A stretch of 64,000 nt of DNA from Microbacterium sp. CGR2 (lineage in GTDB: Bacteria; Actinomycetota; Actinomycetes; Actinomycetales; Microbacteriaceae). Both the position numbers and the translations under genes were made by a program. Each line of letters opens with the position of its first letter. The stretch's first letter is position 1. The DNA is taken from contig NZ_RBHX01000001.1 in NCBI RefSeq assembly GCF_003626735.1, positions 3,410,001 through 3,474,000 of the forward strand, read 5' to 3'. This document shows, one piece after another, positions 51,016 to 63,601 of this stretch. Below the pieces are notes generated by a model. That model saw only the letters and a list, made by a program, of their open reading frames with translations. It was not told the DNA's origin and ran no database searches.

Positions 51016-52728
51016 CTACACGGCAACGCGTGCCCATGAGCCCGCGGCGAGCTCTCTTCGCGCGACCGCACCACCGGGGACCTTGACCCTCACCACCCGA
51101 GCCCGCCGGTCCATGTTCGCGACGAGAAGGATGTCTGCACCCTCACATCGTCCTCCGAGGCTCCACAGAAGACCGTCCGGGCTCGCGCCGGACAACAGCA
51201 CACTGTTCTGCAGTTCCACGAGAGCGTCGAGGGCCTCAGCGACGGGCAGCCGGCCAGACTGGTCAGCGATCCCACGGGGGCCCCAGGTCTCGAACCAAGA
51301 CAGGGAGCTCACGCCGCGAACTGCGAGAGCCGCCGCGCTTGCGATGACCCAGGCGGCGAGTTCGGTCGCACCCTGACGCTCGTCGGATGCACCCGTGAAC
51401 TCTGCGCCGTACCCCGCGGACAGATTCGTTCGAGACGGGGCCGGTTGCGGTGTCGTCGCCACATTGTTGAAGCGCGGTCGCAACGAGACTGGCCCGATGT
51501 GCACATCGAGTCCGTCCGCGATCCGCACGGCCTGCTCGGCCACGAGCCGCTGCATCGCGACCGACTCGACGAGCTGCTCAGTGTCGAGCGCATGAAACAG
51601 CGGACTCACCGTGACGACGATCGCCTCGGCGTCGCGCGAGATGGAGTCGCGCTCGCGGTTGAGCTCGGTGAAGTGCGATCGTGCCCCGCTCGCGAAGGGA
51701 GCATCGATCCCCGCAGCGCGGAGGGCTGCAATCACTCGCGCTCCGACCGCGGGTGATGTCACGTGCGTGTCCTTGTCGAACGCCGCAACCCGCAGCAGCG
51801 GCACGGTCAGCGCCGTCAGCGCTGCCGCCGCGGAACCGACCTGATCGTCATCCTCTCCGCAGATCAGCCGCACGTCGAGCGGCCTCTCATCACGGGCCGC
51901 CCTATCCAGCACGGCGCGCCAGTTGCGCGTGGTCAGATCCAGTTCGACGATCCGGAAGGTGCCCGCCGACGAGACTGGTACAGGGTCAGGAGCGGTCGAG
52001 GCCTCGACTCCGATCTCTGGGAATGAACCGCCCTCAGTCAGGTCGATCCGCGCTTCCGGGGCAGAGCCCGCACGAGTCTCTCGGTCCGCCGGAGCGGAGA
52101 CGATGATCGTCTGCTCCACCGTCTCGCCGTCACCCAGGACATACGGGTACGGCAGATCGAGCGGCCGGCTGTACGTCTTGAACGACGCATCGGTCCAGTT
52201 CCGCTGATCCTCCATCTCGAACACGTCGCCCGTGAAGGAGATCCGCGCTCCCCCGTCGATCCGCAGCTCACGGATATCGCGGATCGGCTGGTGCGGACTG
52301 ATGTCGACGGGGAAATCTGTCGCCTCCGTCGAGCCGTCGGAGTGGACGACGACGACGTCGCGTCCCGCCTCCGACGGCGGATGCAGTGCGACGAGCCCAG
52401 TGCGGCATGTGTCGAAAGCCGCAGCGCTGACGGCGCTCCACACGATCGACAGCTCATCGCCGCGGGTTGCGACGGTCAGAGTCGACGACACACGGGCACC
52501 GAGTCCTTCGTGCTGAAGGGCCAGCTCGAAGGACTCGGCACCGCGGTCGAGCCTGCGCACGGCGACGGGCACGGTTTCCCACCCTCTGTCACGCACGACG
52601 GCACGCACTGCGCGGAGCACGATGATGCCATGATGGCGAATGTCGGCGATCTCGTCGCCCCTCACCTCGAGCGTCCAGCCGCCGGCCTGCCACTCGACAG
52701 CATCGGTCCGCCACCAAGTCGGAGTCAC
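51016..52728 (-). CDS. apnL: D-apionate lactonase-like protein
   Basis: A 570-residue protein with an N-terminal beta domain carrying GDVFEMEDQRNWTDASFKTY (residues 167-186) and a C-terminal TIM-barrel-like part with HIGPVSLRPRFNNVAT. The EMEDQRNW region and overall length match what I recall of D-apionate lactonase (ApnL), which opens D-apionolactone. The downstream order of apnO-, oiaC-, lerI-, derI- and lerK-like genes strongly supports this. GTG start overlaps the SDR stop. Last gene of the seven-gene operon. Confidence 0.75.
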   Translation of the reverse strand: MTPTWWRTDAVEWQAGGWTLEVRGDEIADIRHHGIIVLRAVRAVVRDRGWETVPVAVRRLDRGAESFELALQHEGLGARVSSTLTVATRGDELSIVWSAVSAAAFDTCRTGLVALHPPSEAGRDVVVVHSDGSTEATDFPVDISPHQPIRDIRELRIDGGARISFTGDVFEMEDQRNWTDASFKTYSRPLDLPYPYVLGDGETVEQTIIVSAPADRETRAGSAPEARIDLTEGGSFPEIGVEASTAPDPVPVSSAGTFRIVELDLTTRNWRAVLDRAARDERPLDVRLICGEDDDQVGSAAAALTALTVPLLRVAAFDKDTHVTSPAVGARVIAALRAAGIDAPFASGARSHFTELNRERDSISRDAEAIVVTVSPLFHALDTEQLVESVAMQRLVAEQAVRIADGLDVHIGPVSLRPRFNNVATTPQPAPSRTNLSAGYGAEFTGASDERQGATELAAWVIASAAALAVRGVSSLSWFETWGPRGIADQSGRLPVAEALDALVELQNSVLLSGASPDGLLWSLGGRCEGADILLVANMDRRARVVRVKVPGGAVARRELAAGSWARVAV

Positions 52729-53489
52729 AGCGAAGTCATGCCCCCGTCAACCTGGAACAGCGCACCGGTTGCGAAGGCTCCTTCGTCGCTCGCGAGGTAG
52801 ACCATGATCCCGGTCACGTCGTCAGGGGTGCCGGCACGGCCGATCGGGATGCGGCTGACGATTGCCGCGCGCGACTCGGGATCGGCGCTGATCGCGGCGA
52901 CCAGCGGGGTCTCGGTGTATGCGGGTTGCACCGTGTTCACCCGGATGCCCTGCGATGCGTAGGCCGCAGCGACCGTGCGGCCAAGGCCGTGGATTCCCGC
53001 CTTCGATGCGCTGTAGGCGGTGAAGTCCTTGCCTTCGCCGTTCACACCTGTCGGGCTGCCGGTCAGAATGATCGATCCACCTCCGTGCTGCACCATCGAT
53101 CGCACGGCGTGCTTGACTGTCAGGAATGTTCCGGTGAGGTTGATGTCGATCGTCCGACGCCAGACATCCAGATCAAGCTCTGCTGCCGGCGCGTCCTGTC
53201 CGAACAGCTGCACGCCCGCGTTGGCGACGACCACGTCGGGTGACCAGCCTGCGGCTTCGAGTTCAGCGAAGCCTCCGGCGACGGCATCCTCATCAGAGAT
53301 GTCCATGGTGATCGCGCGTGCCCTCGCACCGATGTCCGCAGCCGCGAGCGCAGCTCCCTCGGCGTTGCGATCCGCGAGCACCACCCGTGCCCCCTCTCGA
53401 GCGAAACGCTTGGCCACCGCCAGACCGATGCCCAGCGCAGCACCGGTGATCAGCGCAGTCTTGCCTTCGAGTCGTGTCACGTTCTTCAC
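52725..53489 (-). CDS. SDR-family dehydrogenase of the apionate cluster
   Basis: A 254-residue classical short-chain dehydrogenase: TGAALGIG cofactor motif, NAG motif (VVANAGVQLFG), catalytic Ser-Tyr-Lys in GSPTG...YSASKAG. NAD preference is suggested by VLADRN at the end of the second strand. It occupies the place where characterised apiose clusters have a Gfo/Idh-type D-apiose dehydrogenase, so oxidation of D-apiose to D-apionolactone is an inviting but untested role. GTG start overlaps the apnO stop. Confidence 0.8.
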   Translation of the reverse strand: MKNVTRLEGKTALITGAALGIGLAVAKRFAREGARVVLADRNAEGAALAAADIGARARAITMDISDEDAVAGGFAELEAAGWSPDVVVANAGVQLFGQDAPAAELDLDVWRRTIDINLTGTFLTVKHAVRSMVQHGGGSIILTGSPTGVNGEGKDFTAYSASKAGIHGLGRTVAAAYASQGIRVNTVQPAYTETPLVAAISADPESRAAIVSRIPIGRAGTPDDVTGIMVYLASDEGAFATGALFQVDGGMTSL

Positions 53490-62579: not shown

Positions 62580-62626
62580 TCCCGCTGCAACGTCCGCAGC
62601 ACCCACAGCACGATCAAAGGAGAATC

Positions 62627-63601
62627 ATGCGACGCAATATCATCGCCGCAGCAGCGGCGCTCACCCTCGCCCTCAGCCTCACCGCGTGCAGTTCCGGTGA
62701 AGGTGATGCGGGTTCCGGCGGGGACGACGGCGAAGCCGGCGGCACCATCGCCATCATCACGCCCTCGCCCGATAACCCGTTCTTCAAAGCAGAGGCAGAC
62801 GCCGCCCAGGCCGAAGCCGAGAAACTCGGCTATGAGACGTCCGTCTCCTCACACGACGATGATCCCAACAAGCAGAGTGAGCTGATCGACGCCGCGATCA
62901 GCAACGGCGCGAAGGCCATCATCCTCGACAACGCCGGTGCTGATGCTTCGGTCGGTCCGATCCAGAAGGCGAAGGATGCCGGCATCCCTGTCTTCCTGAT
63001 CGATCGTGAGATCAATGAGACGGGCGTGGCTGCCGCGCAGATCGTGGCGAACAACGCGCAGGGCGCAGCAGCAGTGGCCGAAGAATGGGTCGCCGCGCTG
63101 CCGGACGGCGGCAAGTACATCGAGCTCACGGGCAAGGAGTCGGACACGAACGCGGGCGTCAGATCGGAAGCGTACGCCAGCGTGATCTCCCAGTACCCGG
63201 AGCTCGTCTCGGTCGCGAAGGAGACCGCGAACTGGAGCCAGGACGAGGCATTCGCCAAGATCGAGACGCTGCTGCAGCGCGATCCTGACATTCAGGGCAT
63301 CATCGCCGGCAACGACACGATGGCGCTGGGAGCCGTCGCGGCTGTGGAGGTCGCGGGACTCAGCGACAAGATCGTGATCGCCGGATTCGACGGCAGCCCG
63401 GATGCTGTGGCGGCGATCAAGAACGGAACGCTGCTCGCCAGCGGTCTTCAGCCGGCGGTGCTCATCTCGCAGCTTGCGGTTCAGCAGGCCGACAGCTTCA
63501 TCCGCACGGGCGAAACCGGCGCTGACGAGAAGCAGTCGATCGACTGCGTCGTGATCAATGCTGGCAACGCCGAGAGCTACACGCTTTTCTCGCTGGAGTG
63601 A
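62627..63601 (+). CDS. Rbs-type sugar-binding lipoprotein
   Basis: A 324-residue substrate-binding lipoprotein: lipobox LTAC (Cys at about 21), then the Peripla_BP_4 fold with [20 protein letters not shown] and [25 protein letters not shown] lies 6 bases before the ATG at 62627. Determines import specificity; the ligand cannot be read from sequence. Last gene of the operon. Confidence 0.92.

Follow-up and report, generated by a model that had tools for sequence, protein, structure and literature searches.

A putative D-apiose regulon in Microbacterium sp. CGR2 with a short-chain dehydrogenase predicted to take the place of the Gfo/Idh-type D-apiose dehydrogenase

In this work, we analyzed a 64,000-nucleotide stretch of the genome of Microbacterium sp. 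CGR2 (positions 3410001-3474000 of contig NZ_RBHX01000001.1; hereafter, the window), which carries at 51016-63601 a catabolic gene cluster together with a regulator and a sugar importer, all of whose genes are open. Read along the minus strand from 58149 to 51016, the catabolic genes encode a DhaK-type kinase, an RpiB-like protein, a triose-phosphate isomerase (TPI)-like protein, an AP2-type TIM barrel, a 6-phosphogluconate dehydrogenase-like protein with a PGDH_C domain, a short-chain dehydrogenase/reductase (SDR) and an ApnL-like protein. The initial annotation had described seven overlapping catabolic genes, divergent from a GntR gene and an importer. The families and the location stand, but six of the seven genes overlap: five junctions are overlaps of 4-7 bases (4 bases between the SDR and ApnL-like genes) and a 5-base gap separates the RpiB-like and DhaK-type genes. 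Likewise, the importer (DUF2291-RbsA-RbsC-RbsB, 59273-63601, plus strand) is the whole of the divergent arm, whereas the GntR gene lies 172 bases upstream of the kinase gene on the catabolic strand. The features are as follows.

51016-52728, minus strand: ApnL-like protein of 570 residues, predicted D-apionolactone hydrolase, distant relative of D-apionate lactonase (NF049900, 191.8 bits)
52725-53489, minus strand: classical SDR of 254 residues, predicted NAD-dependent D-apiose 1-dehydrogenase (PF13561/PF00106; adh_short_C2, 198.5 bits)
53486-54361, minus strand: ApnO-like PGDH_C protein, predicted D-apionate oxidoisomerase (PF16896, 191.9 bits)
54355-55149, minus strand: OiaC-like AP2-type TIM barrel, predicted 3-oxo-isoapionate decarboxylase (PF01261, AP_endonuc_2, 62 bits)
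55146-55943, minus strand: TPI-like protein, predicted L-erythrulose-1-phosphate isomerase, LerI (PF00121, TIM, 170.8 bits)
55940-56416, minus strand: RpiB-like protein, predicted D-erythrulose-4-phosphate isomerase, DerI (LacAB_rpiB, 151 bits; TIGR02133, 208.4 bits)
56422-58149, minus strand: fused DhaK-DhaL kinase, predicted L-erythrulose 1-kinase, LerK (Dak1, 361 bits; Dak2, 151 bits; NF011049, 733 bits)
58261-58278, unstranded: putative operator copy 1, TGGTCAACCGGTTGACCA with 2 mismatches, upstream of the kinase gene (pattern search)
58322-59113, minus strand: GntR/FCD regulator (PF07729, PF00392)
59217-59234, unstranded: putative operator copy 2, TGGTCAACCGGTTGACCA with 3 mismatches, upstream of the importer (pattern search)
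59273-59914, plus strand: DUF2291 protein, first gene of the importer (PF10054, 147.9 bits)
59914-61479, plus strand: RbsA-type ATPase (NCBIfam; homology to cluster copies)
61476-62579, plus strand: RbsC-type permease (homology to cluster copies)
62630-63601, plus strand: RbsB-type binding protein, predicted to bind apiose (Peripla_BP_4, 184 bits; PDB matches)

Apiose is widespread in plants, both in the cell wall (rhamnogalacturonan II, RG-II) and in flavonoid glycosides. The names and reactions used here are those of the apiose and tetritol pathways (ApnL, ApnO, OiaC, LerK, LerI, DerI and ApsD), in which ApsD is a Gfo/Idh-type enzyme. They are echoed in part in the available text of PMC11747546 and PMC6302742. 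A search of plasmid records with the window PGDH_C protein matched 251 records, five regions of which were examined. The cluster of Rhizobium sp. BT03 holds genes for OiaX, an OiaK-type four-carbon acid sugar kinase, TPI, RpiB, PGDH_C, RbsB, DUF2291, RbsA, RbsC, Gfo/Idh and ApnL; that of Salipiger, an importer, Gfo/Idh, ApnL, NanR, a kinase and PGDH_C; that of Paraburkholderia sprentiae, a major facilitator superfamily (MFS) importer, PGDH_C, OiaK and NanR; and those of Erwinia sp. E602 and Pantoea sp. At-9b, rpiB, MFS, DhaK, TPI, TIM barrel and PGDH_C genes. The Gfo/Idh gene follows a window-type importer and overlaps the ApnL gene in both Salipiger and Rhizobium sp. BT03, and the two Gfo/Idh copies are 66% identical. 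In addition, 236 plasmid records were hit when the Rhizobium ApnL served as query; among 20 sampled evenly, seven show a Gfo/Idh annotation under the match, and the other 13 have no annotation or feature there, or nothing beyond "hypothetical protein". The annotation of the Erwinia and Pantoea stretches examined includes neither ApnL nor SDR nor Gfo/Idh; a few kb beyond its cluster, Pantoea sp. At-9b additionally encodes an SMP-30/gluconolactonase and a sugar ABC importer.

The window shares features with both arrangements. With the oxidative D-apiose pathway of Rhizobium and Rhodobacteraceae (ApsD, ApnL, ApnO, OiaK, OiaX) it has in common the importer type with DUF2291 and a GntR/NanR-like regulator, and with the Rhizobium sp. 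BT03 cluster also ApnL and ApnO relatives and TPI- and RpiB-like genes. However, the first enzyme is a Gfo/Idh protein in the Rhizobium type and an SDR in the window, and the OiaK-type kinase and OiaX of the former contrast with the OiaC-like TIM barrel of the latter. The apionate-type cluster of Erwinia and Pantoea has an MFS importer at its head and no annotated ApnL, SDR or Gfo/Idh in the stretch examined, whereas the window has an Rbs-type importer, the SDR and the ApnL-like protein. Judged by sequence similarity, the window joins a Rhizobium-type importer/ApnL side to five Erwinia-type catabolic enzymes (47-62% identity).

The downstream enzymes are consistent with the conversion of apionate into a four-carbon phosphate. 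The PGDH_C protein is 58-59% identical to those of Erwinia and Pantoea and 41-43% identical to those of the Rhizobium, Salipiger and Paraburkholderia clusters; it has the PGDH_C domain and is homologous to proteins of ApnL, OiaK and OiaX clusters, as expected of an ApnO, although no ApnO-specific curated model gave it a score. For OiaC, too, no specific curated model gave a score, and the TIM barrel is 50-52% identical to the proteins at the same position in Erwinia and Pantoea. The initial annotation had named a match to hydroxypyruvate isomerases as a point that would speak against it; no such NCBIfam model hits the TIM barrel at E<=1e-3, where its matches are two L-ribulose-5-phosphate 3-epimerase models at 28 and 23 bits, far below their cut-offs. 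The TPI-like protein (50-52% identity to Erwinia/Pantoea, 38% to the rhizobial cluster copy) belongs to the TPI family but falls outside the TPI equivalogs (best score 166.8 bits against a cut-off of 293), as a candidate LerI would. The kinase, 61-62% identical to the Erwinia and Pantoea copies, exceeds the cut-off of NF011049 (733 versus 492 bits), which places it in the dihydroxyacetone kinase family proposed for LerK. The best model for the RpiB-like protein is TIGR02133 (RPI_actino), with 208.4 bits and a cut-off of 168.2. It does not appear to be the housekeeping RpiB, as its identity to the second RpiB of this genome is only 28%, although the model that it passes is named for ribose-5-phosphate isomerase. 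The curated models back the kinase and isomerase families, not the exact names LerK, LerI, DerI, OiaC and ApnO, which remain predictions.

The SDR has the TGxxxGxG motif and the Asn-Ser-Tyr-Lys catalytic residues of classical SDRs, and D40, N117, S145, Y159 and K163 are invariant in all 52 SDR sequences collected, some genomes being counted twice. D40 sits at the end of strand 2, and in SDRs an Asp at this position favors NAD. It matches the glucose 1-dehydrogenase model PRK07231 with 211.7 bits, slightly below the cut-off of 215. Among PDB sequences, the top-scoring solved SDRs are generically named, with glucose 1-dehydrogenases and the galactitol dehydrogenase 2wdz (139 bits) lower down. 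Glucose 1-dehydrogenase and related SDR sugar dehydrogenases share with the window protein the fold family, the catalytic Asn-Ser-Tyr-Lys and the strand-2 Asp but, in contrast to them, the window protein has close relatives linked to apiose genes. The closest named records bearing the SDR are from Microbacterium, and plasmid records gave no match at 1e-50. The rhizobial Gfo/Idh protein, which from its position we take to be ApsD, no curated model having scored it, served as query for an ApsD ortholog in the rest of the genome; the best of the 10 Gfo/Idh matches reaches 28% identity and 62.7 bits.

We therefore hold with good confidence that the locus is probably an inducible D-apiose regulon in which an SDR-type D-apiose 1-dehydrogenase replaces the Gfo/Idh enzyme ApsD, a variant of the known oxidative apiose pathway. 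D-apiose would enter through the Rbs-type importer and be oxidized at C1 with NAD by the SDR, which would stand in for ApsD despite being unrelated to it. The resulting D-apionolactone would be opened to D-apionate by the ApnL-like protein, converted into 3-oxo-isoapionate by the ApnO-like protein and decarboxylated to L-erythrulose by the OiaC-like TIM barrel, and the DhaK-, TPI- and RpiB-like proteins would then lead through erythrulose phosphates to D-erythrose-4-phosphate. Sequence, synteny, phylogenetic profile and regulation all favor this reading, which the initial annotation had put forward with the SDR in place of a Gfo/Idh enzyme. The gene content, the synteny, the co-occurrence, the conserved palindrome and the missing ApsD ortholog were observed directly; from them and the sequences we infer all substrates and reactions, as well as the binding of GntR to the palindrome.

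To follow the SDR across genomes, 98 relatives were profiled (SDR threshold E<=1e-60; the best 27 SDR candidates per genome were scored, so that misses are possible), the genes of their loci being typed by tblastn and, given the GC-rich DNA, a codon-usage caller. ApnL-like proteins were found in 17 relatives, PGDH_C proteins in 16 and the SDR in 16, with all three in 15. Both SDR and ApnL-like genes occur in 15 genomes, the SDR alone in one (G009), the ApnL-like gene alone in two and neither in 80; in other words, 15 of 16 SDR genomes have the ApnL-like gene versus 2 of 82 others (Fisher p 1.2e-14, kinship ignored). G081 is the only genome with PGDH_C and no ApnL-like gene, and its cluster has the kinase, isomerases and TIM barrel with neither ApnL nor SDR. 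Because of this genome and the co-occurrence in 15 others, the SDR seems to track the lactonase-like gene and not merely the use of apionate. The SDR, PGDH_C, TIM barrel and ApnL genes stand together in 12 of the 16 ApnL loci examined; in the remaining four, ApnL lies apart from the rest (L037, L046), the SDR is missing (L049) or the contig ends (L052). In a phylum-wide sample of 396 genomes (best six SDR and three ApnL candidates per genome scored, misses again possible), SDR (E<=1e-60) and ApnL-like proteins (E<=1e-15) occurred in four and five genomes, respectively, and are thus rare outside the genus in this sample. G361, the single genome beyond the genus with both, has them on different contigs with an SDR of 50-51% identity and is not informative; its 50% SDR relative (L108) adjoins sugar-importer genes.

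A scan of named genomes yielded 40 loci, some of them truncated where a contig or the 10-kb flank ends, and 35 contain an SDR of at least 64% identity. These 35 span Microbacterium, Frigoribacterium sp. JB110, Okibacterium, Blastococcus, the metagenome-assembled genome (MAG) loci L064, L085 and L095 and an unassigned Microbacteriaceae (L074), and overlap in part with the relatives above (e.g., L040/L066, L041/L067, L051/L088, L055/L091). ApnL and PGDH_C genes are present in 31 each, the TIM barrel in 29, TPI in 28, RpiB in 27, the kinase in 26, a PF13204-type glycosidase in 22 and OiaX/OiaK in one, and an ApsD-type Gfo/Idh gene (at least 35% identity) in none. We also weighed the possibility that the SDR interconverts D-apiitol and D-apiose while another enzyme, e.g., an ALO-type FAD oxidase (PF04030), makes the lactone. 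SDRs often act on polyols, as the match to 2wdz recalls, and an ALO-like gene lies near some apiose clusters (L038, 7873-9114; L063, L064, L066 and L093). Nevertheless, ALO-like genes are found in only four of the 35 named loci (the last four just listed), the window operon has no other dehydrogenase, and a lactone hydrolase requires a lactone-forming partner, for which the SDR is the conserved candidate; we thus regard the apiitol role as quite unlikely.

The single OiaX/OiaK locus, L095 (1-10738), comprises an OiaX gene truncated at the end of the locus, ApnL, PGDH_C, OiaK (395 bits, the OiaK model cut-off being 700) and an importer, with a divergent GntR-SDR pair, and the best Gfo/Idh match in its genome scores 47 bits. 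This gene set suggests that a 64% SDR relative also serves the other apionate branch. In its own right, L095 looks like the RuBisCO-like apionate branch in an actinobacterial form, equipped with a window-type SDR. In Frigoribacterium sp. JB110 (L051, the same as L088), a zinc-type alcohol dehydrogenase gene (15980-17011) heads the importer operon.

Six loci have the SDR away from ApnL, four of them with a PF13204 glycosidase as its direct neighbor: L053 (G005), L055, identical to L091 (G009), L056 (G088) and L090 (M. oxydans). The two genes overlap by 4 bases at L053 and at L055/L091. The ApnL-like gene of M. oxydans and that of G088 directly abut the PGDH_C gene, with no SDR between them. PF13204 bears the family name apiosidase, and the subgroup beside the SDR is predicted to be apiosidase-like. 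The glycosidases of L053 (7039-8826) and L056 (10399-11811) have the Pfam architecture DUF5060-PF13204-DUF5605, and those of L091 and L090 were typed by BLAST to L053 (75% and 87%). Taken as a whole, PF13204 occurs in 8 of the 16 SDR genomes and 6 of the 82 others among the 98 relatives. When split by score, a division made after the scores had been seen and with a search that missed the copies in L055 and L056, low-scoring proteins (21-74 bits) are found in 8 of the 16 genomes with the SDR and in none of the 82 without it, and high-scoring ones (133-339 bits) in six genomes without SDR. The low scores of the DUF5060-PF13204-DUF5605 glycosidases suggest a separate subfamily. As no PF13204 gene was found in the genome of strain CGR2 by a search that misses some copies, the apiosidase link rests on the relatives. 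From these arrangements it appears reasonably likely that a second, unrelated family of D-apiose 1-dehydrogenases, of SDR type and found in Microbacterium and some neighboring genera, feeds both the OiaC and the OiaX branches and has moved between the apionate operon and apiosidase-like loci, in which case the DUF5060/DUF5605 form of PF13204 proteins would be an actinobacterial apiosidase. Elsewhere, the SDR relative of L074 (10004-10759, 83%) has GH2, GH3 and LacI genes as neighbors, and that of L094 (10025-10744, 69%), esterases and a cupin.

Regarding regulation, two copies of the palindrome TGGTCAACCGGTTGACCA with no more than 3 mismatches are present in the window, one before the kinase and one before the importer (0.01 expected). 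Within the upstream stretch tested, a palindrome accompanies all 26 GntR orthologs of at least 50% identity at up to 4 mismatches, and 22 of them at up to 3. When the 35 named loci were surveyed together with L049, L057 and the window (799,495 bases), a further nine sites appeared at the limit of 3 mismatches: one is the window site at 58261, another precedes a GH43 gene in L083, and the remaining seven, all from relatives, sit at or ahead of the kinase gene or an MFS gene. Three of those seven fall inside called frames (L065, L070, L071), probably on account of overlong starts. The shared palindrome argues for one regulon comprising importer and operon, with GntR predicted to bind before both arms, and the pattern reaches two other genera (L049, L057). 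The apiosidase-adjacent SDR loci L053 and L090 have no close palindrome copy. The generic operator TNGTNNNACNA was absent from the five intergenic stretches examined. GntR itself is 29-31% identical to the NanR-named regulators of three reference clusters.

The importer resembles the Rhizobium and Salipiger cluster copies (RbsA 47-50%, RbsC 56%; DUF2291 34% to the rhizobial one), and RbsB is 63% identical to the copy of Rhizobium sp. BT03. It seems unusual in the genus, since an Erwinia-like MFS gene is present in 15 of the 35 named loci and RbsB (at least 45%) in one. Among PDB sequences, RbsB matches 5ibq and 4ry0 best (365 bits), the latter being RHE_PF00037 of R. etli CFN 42 and the former presumably a D-apiose complex; the predicted structure of RbsB is weak (pLDDT 59), and 5ibq is absent among the structural matches listed for it. 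The SDR and isomerase families are promiscuous, and the cluster might serve a related branched or four-carbon sugar instead of D-apiose. However, the proximity of RbsB to RHE_PF00037, the ApnO- and OiaC-type proteins, the OiaX/OiaK-linked SDR and the apiosidase-like neighbors all point to apiose, which makes another substrate very improbable.

Less certainty attaches to the ApnL-like protein, which has no Pfam match, and whose alignment has no PDB sequence relatives at E<=0.1. It is 28-31% identical to alphaproteobacterial ApnL and 43-64% to the ApnL-like proteins of relatives. In an alignment of 38 sequences, from which proteins of 480 residues or less were left out and two of which are alphaproteobacterial, E171, E173, D174, R176, D180, K184 and Y186, the residues tested in the motif EMEDQR.W.DAS.KTY, are invariant, as are E355 and N357. 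Residue 480, after a barrel strand, is Glu in 36 of the 38 and Ala in both alphaproteobacterial ones. The predicted structure of residues 225-570 resembles GH51-type two-domain glycosidases. The protein could then be an intracellular apiosidase, the SDR still being the apiose dehydrogenase and the lactone opening spontaneously or by another enzyme; this we consider unlikely, as the motif, with its seven invariant residues, is common to the curated lactonase family.

Several observations weigh against the D-apiose regulon with an SDR as its first enzyme. The family comparison called for by the initial annotation bore out the kinase and TPI families, but not ApnL and DerI: the ApnL-like protein scores 191.8 bits with the curated D-apionate lactonase family NF049900, whose cut-off is 750, and the RpiB-like protein 146.2 bits with the rhizobial DerI model NF051858, whose cut-off is 240. 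The NF049900 score is 1059.8 in Rhizobium sp. BT03, 632.8 in Salipiger, also under the cut-off, and 234.7 at L095. Together with the Glu at position 480, the low score means that the chemistry of the ApnL-like protein could differ. The SDR lies under every NCBIfam cut-off among the models shown. Most relatives come from one genus and are therefore not independent. ApnL-like genes occur without the SDR in G051 and in G045 (81% complete). G005 has ApnL, SDR and PGDH_C apart, with two Gfo/Idh-family genes following the PGDH_C gene (L054, 10757-11836 and 15817-17016; 28% and 24% identical to that of Salipiger). Two of the 35 named SDR loci (L074, L094) show no apiose gene, and ApnO and ApnL-like genes were not found in the genomes of L074, L091 and L094. 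These three genomes would suit an SDR that is a passenger without a role in the pathway. Yet the SDR gene overlaps its neighbors in the window, is 72-89% conserved beside operon genes in 12 relative loci and has been kept in the genome after leaving the operon in G005, G088 and M. oxydans, and a passenger is hence extremely improbable.

If the D-apiose reading is true, annotation that seeks a Gfo/Idh apiose dehydrogenase overlooks Microbacterium users of this sugar, an unnamed SDR group gains a function, apiosidase-like glycosidases gain a testable substrate, and one step of an otherwise conserved route offers a clear case of enzyme replacement. Another non-orthologous change at the apiose entry step, the replacement of D-apiose isomerase, has been proposed in Escherichia; according to the available text of PMC13001218, this case belongs to the isomerase/transketolase route and not to the oxidative pathway, with replacing oxidoreductases hypothesized and growth on apiose shown. 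Our literature search found nothing joining apiose or apiosidase with Microbacterium, although most subscription journals lay outside its coverage and a prior description is possible.

Finally, the adjoining region (44865-50296) carries aromatic-acid genes resembling a gentisate-type ring-cleavage cluster, of which only the first passes a cut-off.

44865-46055: 4-hydroxybenzoate 3-monooxygenase-like
46150-47007: fumarylacetoacetate hydrolase-like
47074-48279: 3-hydroxybenzoate 6-monooxygenase-like
48306-49112: IclR/PcaR-type regulator
49190-50296: gentisate 1,2-dioxygenase-like

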